A stretch of DNA of 50,525 nucleotides from a virus, in the IMG/VR virus record IMGVR_UViG_3300048588_000030, positions 1 to 50,525 of that record; one strand, 5' to 3'. Positions within the stretch are counted from its first letter, which is position 1. Every line of letters begins with the position of its first letter. Positions 4,177 through 50,525 of this stretch are shown here, piece by piece. Made by a program: the position numbers and the translations under genes. The notes beneath the pieces were generated by a model. The model was not told the origin of the DNA. It worked only from the letters and a program-made list of their open reading frames with translations, and made no database searches.

Positions 4177-4604
4177 TCCAGCTCCCGCTCACACGCACTA
4201 TCCCCGTACTGCCACTCCAAATACGCTCGGATCTTGCGCAAGATCTTCTCGTGCTCCTCAATAGCTACCTGAAATCTCATGGCCGCAGTCTGAGAAGGTT
4301 GCATGTGATGCAGTGCATGGCACATCTGCCCAGCATTATTGGACACCAATTCCATGATAGTGCCCCATTCAGTTCTCGACATAAGCGGTGTACCTTCGGT
4401 CGCTTCGTCCCGGATAGCCTCGCTTTCAGGCCCGCTCTCCATCGGAGGCATTTCGTCCTCCCAAAATGCTAACGCTTGCTCCATGCCCTCCACCAGAGCA
4501 ATCTCCTCATCGGGCGAAAGTGCGTAGTCCTTTTCATCAAGCCATTCTTCCGGCTTGCCCTCGTACACATCCGCGCTCGTCTCACACGTATTAGGCGTTG
4601 TCAT
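4164..4604 (-). CDS. Uncharacterised acidic protein
   Basis: A 146-residue protein, strongly acidic over its first 75 residues and more helical and mixed-charge after that (EEHEKILRKIRAYLEW). The ATG at 4604 overlaps the stop of the upstream gene (ATGA) and has GAGGAC upstream. No family or motif is recognised. Acidic small early phage proteins sometimes mimic DNA, but the uneven charge pattern here does not make that case. Confidence 0.6.
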   Translation of the reverse strand: MTTPNTCETSADVYEGKPEEWLDEKDYALSPDEEIALVEGMEQALAFWEDEMPPMESGPESEAIRDEATEGTPLMSRTEWGTIMELVSNNAGQMCHALHHMQPSQTAAMRFQVAIEEHEKILRKIRAYLEWQYGDSACERELESYV

Positions 4605-5548: not shown

Positions 5549-5827
5549 TCAGGCAGGAAGTAACCAGCTTCCTGCGACGGCCAGGGTGGGAAGGGGAACT
5601 CTCTGGGCATCCCCTTGCAACACAACCCCTGGCCGTTTCGACCGAGGGTTAGGTGGAGCCAGTGATTCCCGTATGTACTTCAGCACTCGCACAAGTTCGG
5701 CGTGGTCTGCCTTGCGCAAGTCCCCGAGTTCATCAATCGCGTCAACGAAGTCATACAGGCGCATGATGTGGTCATCATGTATCAAGTAATCCGCTTCTAT
5801 CCTGTTATTCACGCCAGTCTCTCCCAT
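5549..5827 (-). CDS. Small uncharacterised early protein
   Basis: A 92-residue protein with ATG at 5827. The palindrome copy at 5829-5842 lies one base upstream of the start, which leaves no room for a normal ribosome site. This gene may be translated from a leaderless or operator-controlled message. The middle (VDAIDELGDLRKADHAELVRVLKYIRE) looks like two helices. No family is recognised. A later start, MRLYDFVDAID (ATG about residue 22), is possible. Confidence 0.5.
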   Translation of the reverse strand: MGETGVNNRIEADYLIHDDHIMRLYDFVDAIDELGDLRKADHAELVRVLKYIRESLAPPNPRSKRPGVVLQGDAQRVPLPTLAVAGSWLLPA

Positions 5828-5828
5828 T

Positions 5829-5842
5829 GTTATACGTATGAC
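5829..5842. promoter_or_regulatory. Copy 3 of the GTYATACGTATRAC palindrome
   Basis: GTTATACGTATGAC lies directly before the ATG at 5827 and after the stop of the gene at 5852. It differs from a perfect palindrome by one Y/R pair. Confidence 0.5.
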
Positions 5843-5851
5843 GATGCACCA

Positions 5852-6370
5852 TTAGCCCATGTCTACCATAATCACGTCAGTTAACCCTGACCTAAGCGCA
5901 GCACGTACCCACGTCATGCCGTGCTTAGGGTCAACGCAATAGCCGTAGGTCTTGCGGCCAGCACGTATAGCCCACCGTGCTTTGCTCTTGGCTAGTCCCT
6001 TGCCTTGCGTGAACTCCTCCCGCGTGGTAAGGAGCGATAGCACGTATACGTCCACGTCCGAGACAACAGCCGTCTTGCACTCAGGGTGCTTAGGCGTAGG
6101 CGCTAGCCGCATAGGATGCACGGCTAGCCCAAACGATAGCGGCCTCTGCACCTCTCCCCGTGCGTGCTTACGTACCGCGTTACTCTTGCGTGTCACTTTC
6201 CCCACGCTCAACGCTCTTCCCGTGCTGGTAGTGTGCGGCACCAGTCCCGGCCCATTGGGATTGCGTGCAAACATACGCGCCAATGACTGTAGTGCGCTAT
6301 TGCTTGCCCGCTCCCGCGCCACGCTATTCCGTGCGGCTGTCTCTCTAGCTATGCGCTTTACACTAGGCAT
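5852..6370 (-). CDS. Basic uncharacterised early protein
   Basis: A 172-residue, strongly basic protein (Arg/Lys/Ala-rich over the first 75 residues). The C-terminal half (TAVVSDVDVYVLSLLTTREEF onwards) looks like a small alpha/beta domain. The ATG at 6370 has GGAG about ten bases upstream. It is the first gene after the terminator at 6535-6570, so a promoter should lie in 6371-6534; TATACT at about 6430 on the minus strand is a weak -10 candidate. No family is recognised; nucleic-acid binding is plausible from charge alone. Confidence 0.6.
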   Translation of the reverse strand: MPSVKRIARETAARNSVARERASNSALQSLARMFARNPNGPGLVPHTTSTGRALSVGKVTRKSNAVRKHARGEVQRPLSFGLAVHPMRLAPTPKHPECKTAVVSDVDVYVLSLLTTREEFTQGKGLAKSKARWAIRAGRKTYGYCVDPKHGMTWVRAALRSGLTDVIMVDMG

Positions 6371-6384
6371 TGCTCAATCTCCAA

Positions 6385-6402
6385 TTGTTATACGTATAAC
6401 AA
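6385..6402. promoter_or_regulatory. Copy 4 of the palindrome, extended to a perfect 18-bp dyad
   Basis: TTGTTATACGTATAACAA is a perfect 18-bp palindrome, the longest of the five copies. It sits just upstream of the ribosome site of the gene starting at 6370, which is where a repressor or activator of that transcript would bind. Confidence 0.55.
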
Positions 6403-6534
6403 TCTACCAATCCCAAAAACAATTCCCCACGTGCATAGTATACGCCTATTCCATAAGATTTGGCGTGAGGCATTAAATATTTTTTTGCTGCATTGTCTGT
6501 GCATTGCTGGCAAAGCAGTCCGATGGAGCGGCAA

Positions 6535-6570
6535 ACAAAAAAGCCCGGTAGAGCTTTCGCCCTACCGGGT
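6535..6570 (-). terminator. Rho-independent terminator
   Basis: On the minus strand an 8-bp GC-rich stem CCCGGTAG/CTACCGGG, with an inner paired GGGCGAAAGCTC element, is followed by CTTTTTTG. It lies 16 bases beyond the stop of the gene at 6586-7236 and should end that transcript, separating it from the genes at 6370 and below. Confidence 0.85.
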
Positions 6571-6585
6571 TAGTGTCGCCACGTT

Positions 6586-7236
6586 TTATGCTGCCATCTG
6601 TACCAGTTCGGCAACTGGATCAGCACTTGACGCTGCGGCAGTCGTGTCGTGATCACTTGCTGCCATGAGTGCCTTGACTGCTACCGTGATCGCGTCAAAT
6701 CGGCGTGCAGGTACGCTGCCATCCTTGATGCTCGCCGCAATGCTGGCAAGGTCGGCAAGGATCGCGGCACGTGCCTTATCCGCGTCCGTCATGGCGGCAG
6801 CTTTTGCCTTATCTTTTGCCTCTTTCACTGCCTTGTAGATGGCGCCGTAAGACGAATCAGCCGGCAGTTTAACCTTGAGTTCTATCGCGTCCGTCAAGGT
6901 AGACTTGGCCGTACGGTAGGAACCCGGCAGAACTGGCGAAGCCGCGCCAGTCTTGTCAGGTTTCCCGAGGATCACCGGGCAATCCTTCAGCAGGCCGGCC
7001 CGGTAATCGGACTCAACTTGCTCAAGCGCGCCGATCAATGCTGCCGGTGCCGGGTGCATGTTAAACAGCCGTGCTACCAGCACATAGGTACCCTCTTTCT
7101 TCTGCTTAGCGCTATCGGTCGCGCCTTTCGTTTCGTACCCTGCCCGGAACGTGGCAAGCGCCAGTTCGGCCAAAGTCTGCTGGCGTCCGGGTTCGCTTGT
7201 CTGAGCGGGTACTTTCGTTTGTCTGTTCTTGCTCAT
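6586..7236 (-). CDS. Leftward early protein under sigma-54-type promoters, function unknown
   Basis: A 216-residue protein with ATG at 7236 and AGAGG seven to eight bases upstream. It has its own strong terminator and lies downstream of three sigma-54-type promoter sequences, so it should form a single-gene transcript that can be made at high level. The protein is Ala- and Lys-rich and helical (for example AVKEAKDKAKAAAMTDADKA at about 136-155). The N-terminus is basic and Gln/Thr-rich. No enzyme motif, membrane segment or signal peptide is visible. I do not recognise a family. It could be a nucleic-acid-binding or host-takeover protein. Confidence 0.7.
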   Translation of the reverse strand: MSKNRQTKVPAQTSEPGRQQTLAELALATFRAGYETKGATDSAKQKKEGTYVLVARLFNMHPAPAALIGALEQVESDYRAGLLKDCPVILGKPDKTGAASPVLPGSYRTAKSTLTDAIELKVKLPADSSYGAIYKAVKEAKDKAKAAAMTDADKARAAILADLASIAASIKDGSVPARRFDAITVAVKALMAASDHDTTAAASSADPVAELVQMAA

Positions 7237-40696: not shown

Positions 40697-42541
40697 TTAA
40701 TTCACTTTGATTACCTCCATCGTCTTCATATCCAGTTCGTACTTGGTCTCGTTCTTAGCTCCCCAGTGAGTGCCGCTCATAACTCCGCACCCTAGCGGGA
40801 CTGTCAATGAGATGCCGTATATTGCCTTTACAGCGTTATACACGTCCAAGATTAGGCACTGCTGCGCTAACTCGTGGAACGCTTCTAGCTCGCTCTCAGG
40901 CAGCTCTACGATGATACTATCGTGGATGCTGTTAATCAGGTACATCTGGTAGCCCATGGCGTGTATCCGATGCCATAGCCACACGACCGCCAGTGGCACA
41001 ATCTCTCCGGTAGCGAAACCTTGCACAGGATAGTTACATATCGAGGTCGTGTTATTGATGTACCCGGAGCTGTCCATCCTAGTCCCGGGCCAATAGAACA
41101 CAAGCCCGTACTCAGTCTCCAGTTTGCCGTCCCGCAGTACAGCGTTTATCCACGAGTTCTGGGTATCAGTTATGCCCGAGTACCGCTTTCGGAAGTACTC
41201 GTAGTATTCCATCTCCGCTTTGGTGCCCTTGCGGCCACCGTACAGGGGCTTGAACGTGTGAGACTTGGCCGTTTGTCGGTCGCACTTGATGATGTCGGCA
41301 GTGGACGTATGCACATCTACCCGATTAAGGATGTCATCCAACCCCGCTTTATCCCGCCCCAAGTGCACCGCAGCACGGAACTCCAGTTGGGCCTCGTCAG
41401 CTTCCCCTATCAACCAGCCCTCCTTGCGACTCTTGAACAGAGGCTTATATCTACGTTGCAGGTTGTGTAGCTGCACCTTGTATCGAAGGCCAGAGGAGGA
41501 TAGCCTGTGCGTCCTTGTATTGCTCTGGTTGAATGAAGCATAAAGCACACCCTTGTCCGAGCCTTTGCAGCACTCCACAAATTTCTTGAGGTAGAACCCC
41601 ACGTCGTGCCCTACGGCTTTGGCTTGTCGATAGAGATCGAGAAACTTGCGCTGAGCTGCGGTGCTTGGGCGAAGGCTCAGGATTGTAGGCGCGTCAGTCA
41701 GCCTACCCCCTGCTGGGGTGCGGCGTGGCTTTCCGTACTTTGACAGTTCTGGAATGCCGAGTGTGTCGTACATATACTGGGCAAGTTGTTTTGGGCTATT
41801 AAAGTTAATCCCCCCAGTAATAGCATCAAGCTCTTTGGTCAGTTCGGCTAACGCAACCGAGGCAGTGTTGTACTCAGCTTGCACAGCCGCTTTGTCCAGC
41901 ATCATCCCATTGGCTTCGATATCAGCAAGGACAGGAGTGAGCAAGCACCGAGAGTACACAATAGGCAGAAGCCTTGGGCTCTCGCTGCGAAACGCCTGCA
42001 ACTGGGCCTGAGCAAGCTCTACAGTAAGTTCTACGTCACGTTCGCAGTACTTGGCTACCCAAGAGCGGGGAAGAGTCTCCGGGTTAACCCCAGCCTTAAT
42101 CATCTTGGACACTAACGAGTCCTTGCCTTTATTCCACCGCCGCTTAGCTACGGCGTCTAGGGCAAGCTCCCCAAACTGCCACCTGTTACCCCCAATGACG
42201 TACTCAGCAAGCATCGTATCGTACACAAGGACGTTGTGCAAATCTAGTCCGCACCGCTTCAGCCAATGCAACTCAAACTTGGCATTGTGGGCGATCAGAA
42301 AGTCGGCATTGTTGATGTCTTGCACTAGATCGTTGAGCTGGAACTCCCCAGCAAATCTGGAGTTGACTCCACCCTCGCTAGTCCTCCAATGAGCAAAGAC
42401 GATCTTGTTAGTAGGGTCTAACGCGGTTCCCTTATTGTGGTTGGTCGTCTCAAAGTCAAGTGCAACCCACGACCCGTTAAGATAGATACTGGGATCTGGG
42501 TTGGTCAGGTACTTAGGAAGCCCGTCGAGAGTTAGTGGCAT
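40697..42541 (-). CDS. DNA polymerase I-family (family A) replicative polymerase
   Basis: A 614-residue polymerase with both domains. The 3'-5' exonuclease has DFETT at 29-33, HNAKFELHWL at 85-94 and YCERDVE at 165-171. The polymerase has motif A ADEAQLEFR (381-389, Asp382), motif B RQTAKSHTFKPLYGG (422-436) and motif C HDS at 540-542. The Phe in motif B (430) is of the type that favours dNTPs over dideoxynucleotides. ATG 42541 has GGGA upstream; a TTG eight codons earlier is less likely. Motif C has HDS rather than HDE. It is the phage replicase, paired with separate primase and helicase genes. Confidence 0.93.
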   Translation of the reverse strand: MPLTLDGLPKYLTNPDPSIYLNGSWVALDFETTNHNKGTALDPTNKIVFAHWRTSEGGVNSRFAGEFQLNDLVQDINNADFLIAHNAKFELHWLKRCGLDLHNVLVYDTMLAEYVIGGNRWQFGELALDAVAKRRWNKGKDSLVSKMIKAGVNPETLPRSWVAKYCERDVELTVELAQAQLQAFRSESPRLLPIVYSRCLLTPVLADIEANGMMLDKAAVQAEYNTASVALAELTKELDAITGGINFNSPKQLAQYMYDTLGIPELSKYGKPRRTPAGGRLTDAPTILSLRPSTAAQRKFLDLYRQAKAVGHDVGFYLKKFVECCKGSDKGVLYASFNQSNTRTHRLSSSGLRYKVQLHNLQRRYKPLFKSRKEGWLIGEADEAQLEFRAAVHLGRDKAGLDDILNRVDVHTSTADIIKCDRQTAKSHTFKPLYGGRKGTKAEMEYYEYFRKRYSGITDTQNSWINAVLRDGKLETEYGLVFYWPGTRMDSSGYINNTTSICNYPVQGFATGEIVPLAVVWLWHRIHAMGYQMYLINSIHDSIIVELPESELEAFHELAQQCLILDVYNAVKAIYGISLTVPLGCGVMSGTHWGAKNETKYELDMKTMEVIKVN

Positions 42542-42785
42542 TATTCTTTCCCTTTTTGCGCACAATATCCTTCATAATTATCTGGGTAAGCGCCTCTAGC
42601 CCGTTGTCGTAGGCGTGCTCTACTGTCCCTGTATACGTACGAGGGCTTTGCTCAACGTCAGTACTCATACACGCTGCCGAGTATCGGTACATATACGCAT
42701 TTGGGTCCGTGGATATACTCATATCCCGGTACGCGTTGGCTACAATAATTGGAATCCCGTTAATAGATACTTGAATACTTAACAT
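42513..42785 (-). CDS. Small uncharacterised protein, SD in preceding gene
   Basis: A 90-residue protein starting at ATG 42785, with GGAGGGGAA directly before the start. That ribosome site lies inside the end of the upstream gene, in its shared ARALE segment. The 3' end overlaps the polymerase start. No family is recognised; the basic C-terminus (KDIVRKKGKNN) could bind nucleic acid. Confidence 0.6.
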   Translation of the reverse strand: MLSIQVSINGIPIIVANAYRDMSISTDPNAYMYRYSAACMSTDVEQSPRTYTGTVEHAYDNGLEALTQIIMKDIVRKKGKNNATNSRRAS

Positions 42786-43063
42786 TTCCCCTCCAGTGCG
42801 CGGGCGATGGCGGCTTCGGCCAATCCCACAAAACAGTCTTTGGTATGCGGGGCAAATCGAGATGTTGGGCAGCACGGCGATTCGTCGTCGTCGAGCAAGG
42901 TACGGTTAGCCGGGTAGTTCTCCAGCACATCCAGCAGCGCCGTGACGACTTCGGGCGGGCATTGGCGGTGAGAGTGTTCTGGCGTTGCCCATTCAGACGG
43001 GAAGTCCGTGCCAAAACGGGACTCGCACCATTCTTTCCGGGCGCGGGTGATTAGGTCGCTCAT
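42779..43063 (-). CDS. Small protein of the ARALE cassette series (1)
   Basis: A 94-residue protein with three Cys near residues 64-78 (CCPTSRFAPHTKDC) that may bind zinc. It ends ARALEGKC. The codons for ALE contain CTGGAG, which serves as the ribosome site for the next gene. The ATG overlaps the previous stop (ATGA). No family is recognised. Confidence 0.6.
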   Translation of the reverse strand: MSDLITRARKEWCESRFGTDFPSEWATPEHSHRQCPPEVVTALLDVLENYPANRTLLDDDESPCCPTSRFAPHTKDCFVGLAEAAIARALEGKC

Positions 43064-43470
43064 GGCTTCTGCTCCAGTGCTGCACGTATGCCCCGCGCAT
43101 CAGCAAGCGCGTTGTGCGGGTTGTCGCTGCCGCAATCTATGCGTAGCACTTCCATCGTGAGCGGAGGGGTATCAATCCTCGTTCCGGGGCCGGTAATCAA
43201 GGCTTGGCAAAAGTGCGCAATATCCTCCGGCCAATCTGCCACGATATGCACACGCTCAAATTGGGCAAGCCATTGCTGAAGGCTGCTCTGCATATCCGCT
43301 ACTGACACCGAGGATTTACCGAGAATCGGCAGGACATGCGCGGCTACCCAGTCACCGGGGTTCTCGCATGGCACCACCTCATACCACTCCCTACCATCCT
43401 CGGCCACAAGCGCCATAGAAATCAGCGCACCCTTGTACTCATTGAATTCACAATCAAGATATAGGTTCAT
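43060..43470 (-). CDS. DnaQ-like 3'-5' exonuclease (Rv2179c-like), ARALE series (2)
   Basis: A 136-residue exonuclease-type protein. It starts MNLYLDCEFNEYKG, with the DxE of the DnaQ fold, and carries a late HNALADARGIRAAL with the final His and Asp of the site. The central part is short compared with polymerase-associated exonucleases, and resembles 3'-5' exoribonucleases of the Rv2179c type. ATG 43470 overlaps the previous stop. The end LEQKP carries CTGGAG, the ribosome site for the next gene. Confidence 0.7.
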   Translation of the reverse strand: MNLYLDCEFNEYKGALISMALVAEDGREWYEVVPCENPGDWVAAHVLPILGKSSVSVADMQSSLQQWLAQFERVHIVADWPEDIAHFCQALITGPGTRIDTPPLTMEVLRIDCGSDNPHNALADARGIRAALEQKP

Positions 43471-43790
43471 TGTCTCCACTCCAGTGCGCGGATTGCTATG
43501 TTCAGCTTCGCCAGTGCTAAGCGCCAGACACTTAGCCCGCTTGTCTCTATCTGCCTTGCGTTATCAAGAAGCCACTTCCCAAGCTCCGGGCTGATCTTCT
43601 CAACGCGACGAAACCCATTCCCTCTGAATTGGTTACCGTCGCCATCCACTACCTGATACCTTGTTCCTCCTCCACCGTAATCAAGATCGCTATGGTAGAA
43701 GCCAACACACCAATGATCTTGTGGATCTCCATCGTGGTATTTTGTGGCAAGCACATAGTCGCCAACATGTAACGAGCCGGTTATTTTCAC
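43467..43790 (-). CDS. Small protein of the ARALE cassette series (3)
   Basis: A 107-residue protein starting at GTG 43790, overlapping the previous stop (GTGA). The first half is rich in Gly, Tyr and Asp (DYGGGGTRYQVVDGDGNQFRG) and looks beta-rich; the C-terminal half is helical and ends IRALEWRQ. CTGGAG in its last codons is the ribosome site for the next gene. Family not recognised. Confidence 0.6.
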   Translation of the reverse strand: MKITGSLHVGDYVLATKYHDGDPQDHWCVGFYHSDLDYGGGGTRYQVVDGDGNQFRGNGFRRVEKISPELGKWLLDNARQIETSGLSVWRLALAKLNIAIRALEWRQ

Positions 43791-43885
43791 AGCTTCTGCT
43801 CCAGTGCTTTGCGGGCAGCGTGTAATATCTCCATGCAGCCCGACTCCTCTGGGATGTTGAACCGGAGTCTCTCGGCCTCATTCAT
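43787..43885 (-). CDS. 32-residue protein of the ARALE cassette series (4)
   Basis: A 32-codon frame starting at ATG 43885 with GAGGAGG seven bases upstream, and ending TGA at 43787, overlapping the next GTG. The product begins MNEAERLRFNIPEESG and ends AARKALEQKL, the same type of end as its three downstream neighbours. The CTGGAG in its last codons is the ribosome site of the next gene. The overlap pattern on both sides supports translation. Confidence 0.55.
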   Translation of the reverse strand: MNEAERLRFNIPEESGCMEILHAARKALEQKL

Positions 43886-44465
43886 ACCCTGCCTCCTCTT
43901 TATGCTTATCATCGTTATCAAGTGATATCTTAAATCCTACTTTAGCAGCAACGTGGTACACTACGATACCTTCCGGGTTCATGAATCCGGGACTAGCGTA
44001 ACTCCCACCATCACGTAAATTCACCAAGCACTCTGCAACTTGCTCCTCGCTAAACGGACCCCTATAGATTGTAGGGACTATATCACACACCGTAGGAACC
44101 GAATCTGCGGTCCACCGAAGGGCACTAAACAAGCTAAACTTACGGTCTATACGCCCATAGTTACGCTGTATCCCAGCACCCCACCACTCTCCAAAATGCC
44201 GCCCCACGCCCAAAGCGACCAGCTCCATGAAGTTATCTCGGCACCACGCAGCAAAGCCAAAGTTATCTCGTTCGGGAGTAATAAAATTTTTGCGGGACTG
44301 ACACCACATCGATATAGGCCCAACTTCAGTTATTACGGTGGCTACCGTGTTCGCGTCTGGCTCGTCGTACGACCACACTACAGCCGCGTTAGTGCCGTCA
44401 ATTTTTTCTGTAATCACTACTTCACGGAACAGTCGGGCCATCTTGGGAAACTTTACGAATTCCAT
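43878..44465 (-). CDS. RNA ligase-like nucleotidyltransferase
   Basis: A 195-residue protein with the covalent nucleotidyltransferase motif I, TEKIDGTNA at 19-27 (Lys21 is the AMP acceptor). It also has a GEWWGAGIQ segment, a late NPEGIVVYH stretch and KISLDN, matching the later ligase motifs. RNA ligases of this small phage type repair broken tRNA or RNA. ATG 44465 has GGGAG upstream. It is between helicase and the ARALE series in one operon. It may counter RNA-cutting host defences; that is inference. Confidence 0.8.
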   Translation of the reverse strand: MEFVKFPKMARLFREVVITEKIDGTNAAVVWSYDEPDANTVATVITEVGPISMWCQSRKNFITPERDNFGFAAWCRDNFMELVALGVGRHFGEWWGAGIQRNYGRIDRKFSLFSALRWTADSVPTVCDIVPTIYRGPFSEEQVAECLVNLRDGGSYASPGFMNPEGIVVYHVAAKVGFKISLDNDDKHKEEAGYE

Positions 44466-44466
44466 T

Positions 44467-45690
44467 TTATGCTCCCTGTATACGGTTATACGCCACTTCC
44501 ACAGTTACCGGAATTATCGCATGACTGCCACTCCTCTTGTTCTTGCACAATGTCAACACTCTCCTATTAGCCTCAAGACTTTGCACACTAGCCCCAATGC
44601 CGATCATCACGTCAGCTTGGGCTGGGATACCCGTATTGCTATAGTCAACATCTCCCTTGTCCAGCACATCCTTGTTCGACGCACTATCGCCAGCTTGCGT
44701 CACAGACAGGACAACTACCCGGTATCGCTTGGCAATGTTACGCGCAGCAGTAGCTGCTTTCTCCAGCTTAACCGTATAGTTTTGCTCTCCTAGGTCGAGA
44801 TTTCGTAGCTGATCGAGCACAACAACGTCGGGCTTGTACTCCCGAACCAGCGCCTCTATCACGGGCGGCTGGCCGGGACTCAGAGGGGCGAATATGATAT
44901 TATCATACCCCCGTTCCCTAGCCAGTTGTTCCGCCCGTGCCGGATCTGCCTCTATTTCGGCAATGGTCATACCAGAAAGTCGCCCAACCGTACGCATAAT
45001 CAAGTCCTCAACGGGCTCCTCATTGCCGATGTACAGTACGGTAAGACCAGCCCGAAGGAACCCAGACACCGCATTAATCACGAACATGGTCTTGCCTATT
45101 TCAGGTTGCGCAAACACTATGACGTGATGGCCGCGGCGTAGTCCCCCTCGTAGATGGTCATTTAGCGCCTTGGGAAGAATGGGAATGAGCCCTTCCTCCT
45201 TCTCTTTCGCTACCAGTTCAGACAAGTCAGCGCCCCGCATTACCGGGACGAGCTTGGTGATGGCGTCCGCATTGGACGTTTCGGCAGCCAGTGACCATCG
45301 TTGGTAATCAGCAAGTAAGTTAGTTATCTCCGCAGTCCTACCTCCCAAGAGGGCACTCGCAAGTTTGTTCCCAGCCACCTCACGACGCATGGCCATAAGG
45401 TCAGTTATCACGTTCGGTGCGGAGACATTGGCCTCCTCGGAAGTCAGCCCCGCTACCAGTTCCATGAACAGCTTTTTGTGCTTAGGGTTGGTGTACTGCC
45501 GGGCTACGCTATTGGCAAGCAGTTCACCATCCACAGACTTTGCGGTATCGTCATTCGTGTAGTACGCAGTTACAGCATCGAGCACCACCCTCCCTTGCTC
45601 GCTGAAGTCATCCCCAGCATCAGCTTTGTTTACACTGTCCCACGCTTCCCGAGACTTGATGCACGCAACTAGTACCGAACGTTCGCTCAT
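44467..45690 (-). CDS. DnaB-like replicative helicase
   Basis: A 407-residue helicase. The N-terminal 150 residues correspond to the DnaB N-terminal region. The RecA-type domain has Walker A AQPEIGKT (194-201), Walker B VVVLDQ (289-294) and a late arginine finger region near KNKRSG. It is of the type used as a ring helicase ahead of the fork. The stop lies one base before the RNA ligase start. It follows the primase, overlapping it by four bases; the two are fused in T7 but separate here. Confidence 0.88.
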   Translation of the reverse strand: MSERSVLVACIKSREAWDSVNKADAGDDFSEQGRVVLDAVTAYYTNDDTAKSVDGELLANSVARQYTNPKHKKLFMELVAGLTSEEANVSAPNVITDLMAMRREVAGNKLASALLGGRTAEITNLLADYQRWSLAAETSNADAITKLVPVMRGADLSELVAKEKEEGLIPILPKALNDHLRGGLRRGHHVIVFAQPEIGKTMFVINAVSGFLRAGLTVLYIGNEEPVEDLIMRTVGRLSGMTIAEIEADPARAEQLARERGYDNIIFAPLSPGQPPVIEALVREYKPDVVVLDQLRNLDLGEQNYTVKLEKAATAARNIAKRYRVVVLSVTQAGDSASNKDVLDKGDVDYSNTGIPAQADVMIGIGASVQSLEANRRVLTLCKNKRSGSHAIIPVTVEVAYNRIQGA

Positions 45691-46636: not shown

Positions 46637-47161
46637 TTAATAATTCTCAGCAACCATCCTGAGTTTAGCTATTGCTCGTGACAGCAACTGCCGGGAATTA
46701 TCCTCACTTACCCCCAAACGTGTAGCTATCTCCGAGAAACTTGCTCCGTTGGCGTGCATGAAGTACACCGCCACCTGCTGCGGTGCAAGGTCGTTTACCG
46801 CTTGCATTATGGCTGCTTTCTGCTGCTCTGCAGCTAGGATGTCTTCTGGAGAATCCAACGAAGTGCCTACCGAGTACTCAACTAACAACTCGTCCCCTGC
46901 ATCCGTAACCTCCAACTCTAGGTGCCTGCCAATGTCCCGGCTAATGCGGCGGAGTACGTCAACACTCGCATTTGTAGCCATTCGACGAGCTATTCGCAGC
47001 AGTTCGTCATCAGAACCAGTAAAATCGTGGTATCTTTGCCACACTTTTACCAAAACTTCCTGTGCTACATCCTGAGCATCCGCCCTTTCTGGAAGAATCC
47101 CCGTGGAAACAGCCAACGCTGCATCGTGGCACGCCCATAGCTGCTTAGAATCTAGTGCCAT
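46637..47161 (-). CDS. ECF-type sigma factor
   Basis: A 174-residue sigma factor with region 2 (DAQDVAQEVLVKVWQRYHDF, residues about 28-47) and a C-terminal region 4 helix-turn-helix (FSEIATRLGVSEDNSRQLLSRAI, about 142-165), with no region 1 or 3: the ECF build. It should redirect host RNA polymerase to phage promoters; phiEco32 also encodes an ECF factor for its later genes. The gene lies directly downstream of the ATP-grasp gene. GAGGAT precedes the ATG. Promoters A-C are likely targets. Confidence 0.85.
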   Translation of the reverse strand: MALDSKQLWACHDAALAVSTGILPERADAQDVAQEVLVKVWQRYHDFTGSDDELLRIARRMATNASVDVLRRISRDIGRHLELEVTDAGDELLVEYSVGTSLDSPEDILAAEQQKAAIMQAVNDLAPQQVAVYFMHANGASFSEIATRLGVSEDNSRQLLSRAIAKLRMVAENY

Positions 47162-47164
47162 ATG

Positions 47165-47959
47165 TCAATATCCTCGTGATGCTCGACGGTACATTTCAGC
47201 CCCAAATTCCCGAATATAGGTACTCAGAGTCGTTCCAGTAAGGCCCGGTGCGGTGTTAACCTCGTACACAGTCGCTTGTTGGATGTTCTCCGTCCATCCA
47301 ACGTCTACTGCGCCGAAGTCTAGCCCAAGTGCAGCCACTGCTGCTATGGATTGGTCTATGACATCGCGTGGAGGAGCGATCCCAGCACGACCAAATACCC
47401 ACCCGTTATCATAGTTACGCACCATATTGCGAGTCTCGGGGTCACCCAAAAATTCACCAGATCTTCGCATCTTTTTCTGCACATCGATGACACGTCCTTG
47501 CATGACGTGTACACGGTACTCGTCCTTCTTAGGCACATAGCGAACATAAAGCGGAAGCCCCTCCCTGACATCTTCTGGTCGTTTATAGATCTCAATTCCA
47601 CGTCCTGAACTGGAACGGAGTAGTCGCCGGCCAAAAACTATACGTTTTCGTGCCCACTTTCGGGCAACATTAACGTCCAAAGTATATTTTGGAATTTTTA
47701 TGCCCGCGGAATTAAGCAGCTCGAACGCCTTGAGCTTGTTACTGGCAAGTTTCACAGCACTTGGAGCGTTCAGCACGTACCCGCACCGCATTGCCCACGA
47801 CTCCGGTAGGGCAGACGAGCCCCAATTTACGATAGCATCACTGCCCCTAGGCACATAGGACGACTCCTCTGGTGCTCGCAATCGCTTAATCCTAAGCCCA
47901 CGACTTAGCTTTCTGGCACTGTCACTAAAGTAATTATACGCGTACAGCCGCCCTCGCAT
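47165..47959 (-). CDS. ATP-grasp amide ligase
   Basis: A 264-residue protein of the ATP-grasp superfamily, which activates a carboxylate as an acyl phosphate and joins it to an amine. Visible features are SNKLKAFELLNSAGIKIPKYT (about 73-93), an RSSSGRGIEIY loop (116-126), RYVPKKDEYRVHVMQG (140-155) and the metal-binding end GAVDVGW and VYEVNTAPG (231-239). ATG 47959 has GGAGGTG upstream; a GTG seven codons earlier is possible. It overlaps the amidotransferase gene by 26 bases. In phiEco32-type islands ATP-grasp proteins add further amide bonds to the same product. Confidence 0.85.
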   Translation of the reverse strand: MRGRLYAYNYFSDSARKLSRGLRIKRLRAPEESSYVPRGSDAIVNWGSSALPESWAMRCGYVLNAPSAVKLASNKLKAFELLNSAGIKIPKYTLDVNVARKWARKRIVFGRRLLRSSSGRGIEIYKRPEDVREGLPLYVRYVPKKDEYRVHVMQGRVIDVQKKMRRSGEFLGDPETRNMVRNYDNGWVFGRAGIAPPRDVIDQSIAAVAALGLDFGAVDVGWTENIQQATVYEVNTAPGLTGTTLSTYIREFGAEMYRRASRGY

Positions 47960-49637
47960 TAGACACCTCCATAGTTTCACTACATCCGCAATTAGCTACG
48001 TGCTCATTTCCTATCATCCGATATGATACAGCGTTAGCCATAGCAAACGTGATAGGCTGCCCACAGTCATAGCACCCACCCTTAGTCAGGTCAAGGAATC
48101 TCTGTGCTGATACCTTTGTGTTATACAGTCCCGGATAAACGAAGCCATCGACCCCGACATACGCCTTCTGTCTATTCTCTGTCGATATACTGTCAACTAA
48201 CTCTGTTGCGCTTGTGCAACGCGGCCCCCCTATCTGCACACTAGCCACGTCGTACGCGTCATCATCAGCATCATCGGTATCTACACCACTGGCATCAATG
48301 TCCTCCCCCTCATATAGCCACAAAGCCTCCTCCCCATGCTCATATGTCGGAACAAAGTCATCCGGCACCTTAGTCGATATCAGGCGACATATGACCTCGA
48401 CCTTTGTATCATCAAGTACCCGCACGCCTATTGGGGCGACCTCCCACACGTGGTCCTTGACTACCCACTGTCCCGGCTCAGCCTTGCCCAAACCTAACAG
48501 GGTGCTATCCAGTCCGTGCAAAGAAGCCTCGACTTGTGCGCACCCTAACTCCCCGGTCAAGCGAGCTATAGTGCGCCCGTTTCTCCTAGTAGAGTGCACT
48601 TGCAGTGGTACGAACAACATTCGATCATCGGGAGTGAGCGACCAATCCATTAACAACTCCAGCATACTATCAGGTATCTTCTTTTGGCGCTGCTCTGGTG
48701 CAGTAGTCGGCGTCACCTCTGTAGTAGGTTGCGCGCTGGGTGGTGTAATCACCGCTGGACGCTCGATGGGTTGCCGTCCCGGCCTGTAGTCTGCGCTATC
48801 ATCATCACAGTAAGATCCGTATGCGTCGTCATAGGCATGGGCCCACTGAGCATACGCCGAAGTTGCGCCACTGTAAGTCGTGTTGTATGTACAACGCTTA
48901 AGTTCAAGTTTGGTCATCTCCGGGGTAATAGTACTTGCTGCGTGGTGCCAGCGCATGAGTACGCCGGGATCAGGCTGAAAATACGTGTCAATGGTAATGC
49001 GAATTCGAGATGCCAACCATCGCAGCATTTCAAACTCAGAGGCGATGTACAGGGTGTTGCTGACACGAGATACCCCAAGGTGCAACGGCCGCTCACTATT
49101 GCGTATCAGATTGATGTACCCACTCCTAGAGTCGTACCACACCAGAGCAAACGCTCCCTCAATCTCCTTGATAACATCCTCTGGCGTGCCCTCATCCAGT
49201 GCGTGAGCTATGTAGTGACTGTCCACTTCAGCAGACTTGGACGAAAGCTTGTTGTGATTATGTATTGTTCCATTGTGAACAAGTGTGATAGCTCCAGATA
49301 TGAACGGGTGCGTGTTATCTGTCGTAGCCCGGCCTTTAGTTGCTGCCCTATTATGCCCAACCGCAGCAAACAAACTTGGCACTGTGCTCATGAAGCCCTT
49401 GGCTGCCGCATCGGCTAGAAACGCAGGGCCGGGCGCGGCCATACGTGCCCAACTAGCCTTTGGCACAGCAACTGAGTGCCGCTCCGCACTCGACGTGTAC
49501 GGCGGTCGCATTACACCAAATATCCCAGTGCCGTCTCTGCCGCGCAACGTGCCCGCAAACATAGCTTGTTCCAAGAAGCTTCGCTTATCTGCTGGGTGCA
49601 TAGCTGATGTAGTAATCACTCCAAATATTCCGCACAT
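47934..49637 (-). CDS. Class II glutamine amidotransferase with extra C-terminal domain
   Basis: A 567-residue protein beginning MCGIFG, with the N-terminal nucleophile Cys2 of class II (Ntn-type) amidotransferases. Conserved stretches follow: GHNRAATKGR (about 113-122), LVHNGTIHNH and VDSHYIAHAL. The domain ends near residue 240. The next 330 residues are unlike the synthase domains of asparagine synthetase or GlmS. They include a Pro/Thr-rich linker, a beta-rich region and a C-terminal Cys cluster (CYDCGQ, CGCSE) that may bind zinc. Family enzymes release ammonia from glutamine for an amide-forming partner, here probably the ATP-grasp or amidoligase enzymes next to it. Confidence 0.85.
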   Translation of the reverse strand: MCGIFGVITTSAMHPADKRSFLEQAMFAGTLRGRDGTGIFGVMRPPYTSSAERHSVAVPKASWARMAAPGPAFLADAAAKGFMSTVPSLFAAVGHNRAATKGRATTDNTHPFISGAITLVHNGTIHNHNKLSSKSAEVDSHYIAHALDEGTPEDVIKEIEGAFALVWYDSRSGYINLIRNSERPLHLGVSRVSNTLYIASEFEMLRWLASRIRITIDTYFQPDPGVLMRWHHAASTITPEMTKLELKRCTYNTTYSGATSAYAQWAHAYDDAYGSYCDDDSADYRPGRQPIERPAVITPPSAQPTTEVTPTTAPEQRQKKIPDSMLELLMDWSLTPDDRMLFVPLQVHSTRRNGRTIARLTGELGCAQVEASLHGLDSTLLGLGKAEPGQWVVKDHVWEVAPIGVRVLDDTKVEVICRLISTKVPDDFVPTYEHGEEALWLYEGEDIDASGVDTDDADDDAYDVASVQIGGPRCTSATELVDSISTENRQKAYVGVDGFVYPGLYNTKVSAQRFLDLTKGGCYDCGQPITFAMANAVSYRMIGNEHVANCGCSETMEVSNARAAVRV

Positions 49638-50525
49638 TAAAACTCGTCCTCCTCAGTAGATTCATCGTTATCGTACTCTTCGTCATTGTACTCAATGTAC
49701 TCTTCATTATACCCCTCATCGTACTCCTGAACTTGCGTGAAAGTGGCCGTATCCTCTTGCGGCCTACGGAACGTATTCAAAAGCTCCCGAAAGTCAACTG
49801 GGCTATCAGCTCGTGCCGGAGCCGCACTAACTTTCTGATGCAAATTGCCGAAGCGCCACTTGAACGTGTCTGGTGATGGCGCTGGAGTATTGCCTAGAAG
49901 AATAGCTATAGAAGTGGGGATGTCGTACTCAAGCAACCACTCAACCTCCAACACAGACGACAGATTAGTGCGTACTGGCGTCGCATTGAACAGGCTTGGA
50001 ATGAGGCTTCGCACCACACTATCGACACTCCTCGTACGCAACTTGAGCAGTAGGTCGTCTGGAGATACGTCTCGTGAGTTGTGCATAAGCTCGTCAATAA
50101 CAGATAGCCACAGTCTTGCCTGTCCTACGTTGTCCCAAAGAGGTGCGTGACGGAACTCCAGCGTTCCGAACTTATGAATAGCCCCCAAGTTGAGTGCGCT
50201 GTACTTCTGAAAGTTATCCCACGCACCGCACCCACGCAGTGCACGGCTTAGCTGCTTGAGCGGAAGGTTAGCTCGGTAGAATGGTATGCAGTATATGTTC
50301 TCCTCTCGATCAGTTCCGCACATAGAGAATAGGATAGGCTCCACTAAACAGTACGCTGCCACGATATTGCGTACGCTATTCGGTGTTTCCAGTTGTACGT
50401 TAGCGTGCACGTGCATTGATGTTCGTATGCTTGAGGTGAACCCGTACGTATACCGCTCAGCGTAGAGCGCATCAAGCATGGAGTGTGCTTGCGTGCGCAT
50501 GACAGGACCGGCCAAGAACTCTATT
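49637..50525 (-). CDS. COOH-NH2 ligase (amidoligase, type 1-like), C-terminal part
   Basis: The open frame enters the window at 50525 and runs to 49637, overlapping the amidotransferase start (TAATG). Its first residues, IEFLAGPVMRTQ, continue a GIEF-type motif, and RTSMHVHANVQLE and EFRHAPLWDN follow. This is the pattern of glutamine synthetase-like amidoligases. The 38 N-terminal residues are encoded at 115-1. The 30 C-terminal residues form a very acidic tail. The sequence between HTTAY and IEF is absent from the window; it should hold the Asp-Gly-Ser-Leu-Arg-type stretch. It is the second amidoligase of the island and is probably full-length in the phage. Confidence 0.75.
   Translation of the reverse strand, partial: IEFLAGPVMRTQAHSMLDALYAERYTYGFTSSIRTSMHVHANVQLETPNSVRNIVAAYCLVEPILFSMCGTDREENIYCIPFYRANLPLKQLSRALRGCGAWDNFQKYSALNLGAIHKFGTLEFRHAPLWDNVGQARLWLSVIDELMHNSRDVSPDDLLLKLRTRSVDSVVRSLIPSLFNATPVRTNLSSVLEVEWLLEYDIPTSIAILLGNTPAPSPDTFKWRFGNLHQKVSAAPARADSPVDFRELLNTFRRPQEDTATFTQVQEYDEGYNEEYIEYNDEEYDNDESTEEDEF

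Follow-up and report, generated by a model that had tools for sequence, protein, structure and literature searches.

Four successive genes of a virus end in one repeated coding joint that may serve as a site of cassette exchange

In the window, by which we mean the whole analysed stretch of viral DNA of 50,525 nucleotides, four successive genes between a DnaB-like helicase gene and a family A DNA polymerase gene end in the same short coding joint. We read these four genes as cassettes, and the joints as both product and substrate of a short-homology cassette recombination, and give this reading a probability of roughly two in three. From the helicase towards the polymerase, the minus strand carries an RNA ligase gene, ORF32, ORF107, an RNase H-like gene, ORF94 and a small gene of phrog_3491. 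The features of this region are given below, where L064, L264, L267 and L304 are loci of other viral contigs to which the window was compared.

44467-45690, minus strand: DnaB-like helicase gene, the left conserved flank (phrog_19, E 3.9e-37; 99% identical in L064)
43878-44465, minus strand: RNA ligase gene, first gene of the block (phrog_548, PF09414)
43787-43885, minus strand: ORF32, a 32-aa gene with the end ARKALEQKL
43787-43808, minus strand: joint 1, AGCACTGGAGCAGAAGCTGTGA; TGA stop overlaps the next GTG start by 4 nt; 17 nt common with joint 3
43467-43790, minus strand: ORF107; none of its 16 relatives found in other viral contigs has the ALE tail
43467-43506, minus strand: joint 2; ATGA overlap; 43479-43506 (28 nt) identical to the end of an unrelated coiled-coil gene of L304
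43060-43470, minus strand: RNase H-like gene (phrog_2259, E 5.5e-31)
43056-43081, minus strand: joint 3; ATGA overlap; 26 nt identical in L264 and L267, 20 nt in L304
42779-43063, minus strand: ORF94; L064 and L304 have relatives of it that end similarly
42779-42804, minus strand: joint 4, CCCGCGCACTGGAGGGGAAATGTTAA; 17-nt core GCACTGGAGGGGAAATG; 7-nt overlap with the next start
42513-42785, minus strand: phrog_3491 gene, small and conserved, with which the right flank opens; the 98.5% DNA identity with L064 runs from 42799
40697-42541, minus strand: family A DNA polymerase gene, the right conserved flank (phrog_17, PF00476)

Family searches gave no match for ORF32, nor for a 199-aa gene adjoining the polymerase. 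No defence gene was found among the 8 block-region proteins scanned, and no annealing protein was identified among the minus-strand genes scanned. At 46637-50515 of the window, amidoligase-like, glutamine amidotransferase-like and ribosomal protein S6 glutaminyl transferase-like genes adjoin a sigma-factor-like gene.

The first-pass annotation of this DNA had reported that four adjacent genes share ALE ends, namely KALEQKL (43787), RALEWRQ (43467), AALEQKP (43060) and RALEGKC (42779). The case turned out to be stronger than stated there. The identity of the joints was confirmed, with the correction that the identical block comprises nine bases, GCACTGGAG, rather than six, and all four joints overlap the next start (by 4, 4, 4 and 7 nt; GTGA, ATGA, ATGA and ATGTTAA) rather than three of them. 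CTGGAG lies 8, 8, 8 and 5 nt ahead of the next start, as described, so that GGAG is found 5 to 8 nt ahead of it in every joint. The four genes had been called otherwise dissimilar; tails aside, their proteins indeed share no convincing resemblance, and a tandem duplication of one ancestor gene was rejected on these grounds.

The 50,525 bases hold four copies of GCACTGGAG, at 43799-43807, 43479-43487, 43072-43080 and 42791-42799, only at these four gene ends, and each copy sits exactly three codons ahead of the stop in the same phase. Shuffled windows are expected to hold 0.62 copies, and 1 of 100 shuffles gave four with no placement required, so the copy count by itself is modest evidence. Chance is excluded because of the placement at four successive ends, the phase, the distance to the stop and the codons. 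The peptide ALE occurs seven times in the 41 listed genes; four occurrences are the joint ends, all spelled GCA CTG GAG, and the remaining three are internal with other codon spellings. GCA makes up 16.7% of the Ala codons in the listed genes, and with the peptides given, codon usage of the window yields a probability of 0.037 for this spelling at each end and 1.9e-6 for all four. Longer matches connect joints 1 and 3 (17 nt) as well as joints 2 and 4 (13 nt). All six pairs of joint starts have 9 to 17 nt in common, always including the same 9-mer, and the longest match between any two of twelve other minus-strand starts was 11 nt (one pair). A pairwise match of 9 nt alone is unremarkable; what is remarkable is that four ends in a row carry one and the same 9-mer in an identical phase.

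Relatives of the window were collected by a polymerase scan of viral contigs, and their polymerase proteins were 100% (L064), about 70% (L065, L066) and 51-54% (L067-L072) identical to that of the window. The direct evidence on the window's own block comes from one close relative, L064. On the right flank, the 98.5% identity of the two sequences begins at 42799, with the first base of the 9-mer in joint 4, and on the left flank an identity of 93% stops at 43892, at the ribosome site ahead of ORF32. Between these positions the gene content differs, with about 1.1 kb in the window and 1.6 kb in L064. An extra 66-aa gene adjoins the right flank in L064, with one copy of GCACTGGAGGGGAAATG on either side of it, against a single copy in the window. 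The upstream side of joint 4 in the window matches that of the first L064 copy (38 nt, 97%), and its downstream side matches that of the second. Judged from these alignments, the difference is the expected product of recombination between two 17-nt repeats, in either direction. Within ORF94 and its L064 relative (4336-4566), the DNA is alike over the first 39 nt (90%) and the last 38 nt (97%) and diverged between. Cys and His residues precede the tail, and the product is possibly a small metal-binding protein.

In the seven distant relatives that contain both genes (L065, L066, L068-L072), 30 to 284 bp separate the helicase from the polymerase, and hence these relatives lack the block. L067 shows the polymerase only and is therefore outside this count; in L066 the RNA ligase gene is found upstream of the helicase gene instead. 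By this comparison, the block between helicase and polymerase is inserted and variable. Module shuffling at the joints, as proposed in the first pass, is supported, as the window and L064 part in gene content precisely at a joint. Stability of the same genes in all relatives had been named as the finding that would speak against it. Instead, the content of L064 differs, seven distant relatives are without the block, and one tail recurs in an unrelated phage. Isolated phages contained no DNA match to the block, and searches with a 42-nt joint query among isolated phages and plasmids gave short, unconvincing matches only. Two scans of bacterial genomes with joint patterns found none, with about 0.2 chance matches expected in the second by our own estimate. 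ORF94 had no relative among phages, and a viral-contig scan returned 16 stretches of which none was confirmed.

The shared tail is that of ORF107. Among its relatives at sixteen loci, of which the L496 copy is broken, none has the ALE end. At the end of ORF107 (protein end LNIAIRALEWRQ), a stretch of 28 nt closing with CTGGAG is identical at 28 of 28 positions to one at the end of an unrelated coiled-coil gene of L304 (protein end LNIAIRALEQKP), with no identity past either edge. The tail of ORF107 thus seems to be transplanted, and the gene would have gained a new C-terminus. L304 is a 41.5-kb viral contig with a G+C content of 64.6% in the stretch examined, versus 53.3% in the window. Over 13.5 kb, its protein similarity to the window is restricted to the surroundings of the ORF94 relative and two weak open-frame matches. 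It had been retrieved by a pattern unrelated to the 28-nt stretch of ORF107. Joints 3 and 4 are matched in L304 as well, over 20 and 22 nt, respectively, and so 1.8 kb of L304 hold exact matches of at least 20 nt to three of the window's four joints. In a survey of exact matches of at least 19 nt between the window and unrelated loci (L144-L481, with L308 left out), 10 of 11 fell inside the 1.1-kb block, including all seven of at least 20 nt.

L264 and L267, which have the same sequence there, have 26 nt in common with joint 3; both were retrieved with the joint 3 pattern, and this match is biased accordingly. An ALE end was found in 1 of 58 relatives of the RNase H-like gene (58 of 59 loci, the partial match L063 being left out, with several rows that are copies, L050-L056). 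L304, L264, L068 and L064 bear consecutive sample numbers (3300048588 to 3300048591) and probably come from one study. At 7989-10583 of L304, a second joint, GAGCAGAARCCRTGA (end EQKP), occurs in five copies within 2.6 kb. The same locus has a 12-codon frame, MTDPITRALEGK, that looks like the start of an ORF94-family gene fused to a joint, i.e. a cassette reduced to start and joint.

The first pass had also suggested searching for the junction in other phages, and this search found cassette arrays, each with its own joint spelling. The pattern CGCGCACTGGAGN{2,8}ATGA occurred in at least 120 stretches, and among the matches listed 83 of 123 have a spacer of exactly 7, mostly reading ...ATCCGCCGCGCACTGGAGCAACTCGATGACTGAC. 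This second joint (ATGACTGA) encodes the end IRRALEQLDD, and the next gene starts with MT[DE] in an 8-nt overlap. The isolate Synechococcus phage S-CBS2 matches it over 20 of 20 nt where gp065 borders on gp066, and at 5715-6692 of the same phage (L499) there are three successive 8-nt overlaps, the first with a joint of the RRALEQLDD type. At 73 distinct sites, 15 pairs had the same upstream and different downstream sequences, 10 pairs the reverse, and 1 pair was the same on both sides. Hence, one shared flank goes together with a different opposite flank in 25 of 26 pairs, pairs of intermediate similarity being left uncounted, and identity switches between about -6 and +21 of CTGGAG. Among 1116 alignment ends from 71 loci, 63 were located within 25 nt of the second joint, 8.2-fold the expectation, and 76 at other ribosome-site starts (2.1-fold); as the loci of this count and of the pair comparison were chosen for carrying the joint, the fold values are guides. 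In the whole records of 18 second-joint loci, the strict form occurs 0 to 3 times per record.

Further groups that spell the joint in a way of their own are L348, with four joints in 0.93 kb, L320, with five joints in 1.5 kb, and L349, L361, L279 and L151. Between RRALEPKP joints, L151 has one gene more than L186, which amounts to gain or loss at a third joint. The extra gene in L151 resembles its neighbour, and so a tandem duplication may fit this case too. Near 2250 in L151, and also in L186, a 9-codon frame MSRALEPKP consists of start and joint only and looks like an empty cassette slot. A search of 838 sites for filled and empty pairs yielded one, L186/L151; it missed the window/L064 pair, where the upstream match is only 38 nt.

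Not every ALE end can be read as a joint. TGGAGGGGAAATGA, which is the joint end of L064 minus the Ala codon, was found at 114 distinct viral-contig sites, 85 of them in-frame gene ends, and ALE was present in 6 of these 85. A gene end of [LMV]EGK and stop over a ribosome site is a common convergent coding solution. Since such ends with an in-frame Shine-Dalgarno sequence are generic, a single ALEGK end proves nothing. CTGGAG ahead of a start, or an EGK end, is by itself likewise generic. Of 107 places on the ALE[GE]K list, 101 continue an upstream reading frame; in view of this control, they were no longer read as proof of one universal joint, and the claim was limited to multi-joint loci. 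Only three swap pairs were found among 96 ALE[GE]K sites. ALE was present in the last 8 residues at non-focal junctions in 3 of 2390 cases in background loci (two of them from L064); the control set had 10 of 2459, the ALE[GE]K set 32 of 2558, and the second-joint set 33 of 2751. With permuted motifs, the count was 0-11 in the background, control and ALE[GE]K sets and up to 28 in the second-joint set. All of these counts come from a rough gene caller that includes spurious frames. The evidence for joints lies in repetition within a genome, exact matches past the core, and flank switches.

According to the cassette reading, one junction would do three jobs, providing the last residues of one gene (ALE plus three), the GGAG ribosome site, and the overlapping stop and start. 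Many cassettes of a local phage pool would carry the same joint. Single-strand annealing or another short-homology recombination between joints, either two inside one genome or between phages in one cell, could then add, remove or swap whole genes. With ending, ribosome site and start united in the joint, any gene end could be linked to any start and translation would stay intact. As every product would have the joint at its new border, the joint would copy itself along the array without an integrase, and genes formerly without a joint would gain a new C-terminal tail. We infer that the joint drives exchange rather than merely marking it, the homology raising the exchange rate, and the same applies to which recombinase acts at the joints. 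According to PMC2327257, RecA or Red need a homology of about 30 bp, and RecET joins 5-13 bp, rarely. The joint cores of 9-28 nt are shorter than the requirement of RecA or Red, and therefore selection for intact borders must help.

It may also be that breaks are random and that only those at gene borders survive selection, the joints merely hitchhiking with cassettes of the pool. The enrichment of other gene starts at alignment ends is in line with this, as are the left edge of the swapped block, an ordinary ribosome site, and the further ATGA junctions of L064 that lack ALE. Against this stand the much higher enrichment of the joints at the same alignment ends, a difference between window and L064 that is exactly as from recombining two 17-nt repeats, and a tail grafted inside a coding region, and so we consider random breaks unlikely, if still worth serious attention. 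A purely technical origin is practically negligible. The window and most loci are metagenome contigs, which could be misjoined at short repeats, and the repeats do lie at the joins. However, the words used in assembly are usually longer than such repeats of 9-28 nt, window and L064 are in agreement on either side, the second joint is carried by the isolate S-CBS2, and many contigs agree.

Shared translational control, with the repeat as a selected binding site or a very good start site and shuffling as a secondary effect, would account for the GGAG and the stop/start overlap in every joint, and repeated start-site motifs are already known as start-associated sequences. We nevertheless hold it to be improbable, because the four joints have no common RNA structure and none beyond shuffles (z -0.76 to 1.75), the other genes of the window are without the repeat, and the ribosome does not need GCA. 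Furthermore, the joint spelling varies between phage groups and is alike within each. It is still harder to accept that alpha-helical protein ends and the need for GGAG produced ALE by chance. The TGGAGGGGAAATGA control fits such convergence in that in-frame ribosome sites are generic, with ALE in only a few of these ends. Yet the same uncommon Ala codon is used in four of four joints, relatives of the same genes have no ALE, and exact matches of 28, 26 and 22 nt to unrelated loci were found, the 28-nt match being sharp-edged. Recombination at the joints remains our preferred explanation.

Several elements of this arrangement have known counterparts. The lambda nin region was termed "a chain of interlinked genes" (Kroger and Hobom 1982, via PMC8022706), and it is alike in that ATGA overlaps link small accessory genes of an early operon, which vary between relatives. 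Successive stop/start overlaps of the nin type are present at all four window joints. In contrast, the ten lambda junctions from ren to Q have no common block (longest pairwise match 10 nt, next 8), whereas the window has one 9-mer in all four joints and pairs of up to 13-17 nt inside coding sequence. Moreover, the window's block is without nin homologues or a lambdoid early operon; its setting is a helicase and a family A polymerase, with ligase, RNase H-like and family-less genes. Start-associated sequences of cluster K mycobacteriophages (PMC3203893) and cluster EF Microbacterium phages (PMC7302621) lie mostly in intergenic gaps of more than 50 bp and have no known role, according to these reports. 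They resemble the window, with its four of four joints, as short asymmetric repeats at the ribosome sites of many different genes. They differ in being mostly intergenic, whereas the repeat of the window is the end of the upstream gene, overlaps the next start, and is accompanied by gene exchange. The cluster K consensus GGGATAGGAGCCC had no match in the window with up to 2 mismatches.

In T4-type phages, PeSLs are said to be intergenic elements of promoter and stem-loop; Arbiol and colleagues reportedly described them in 2010 as mobile regulatory cassettes, with the repeated element proposed to mediate gene shuffling by recombination. Unlike these stem-loops, the window joint is coding and translational, with no structure beyond shuffles. 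Short homologies at module borders, the boundary or linker sequences of lambdoid phages, have been proposed to guide exchange. Those border modules, whereas in the window one joint is repeated within a row of single-gene cassettes. The boundary-type feature, gene content changing exactly at the repeat, was seen both between the window and L064 and at the second joint (25 of 26 pairs). ATGA chains, start-site repeats and regulatory cassettes are thus known, and an exchange joint inside coding sequence appears to be new; we found no description of one in a literature search that left most subscription journals outside, which is weak evidence of absence.

We suggest tentatively, at somewhat less than even odds, that several unrelated phage groups maintain integrase-free gene trading by group-specific, self-spreading coding joints in rows of small genes, and that accessory genes of different phages sharing a habitat are thereby made interchangeable. 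It is an old question whether exchange of single genes at exact borders is guided by short homologies, or is random and sorted by selection. Coding joints would offer a directly testable system for it, with natural filled and empty sites. They may help to explain the like ends of unannotated small phage proteins, and shared tails are a warning against reading such ends as homology or function of the proteins. Joints may furthermore serve as a sequence handle for finding accessory gene arrays, and they would provide viruses with a simple way to trade genes without breaking them.
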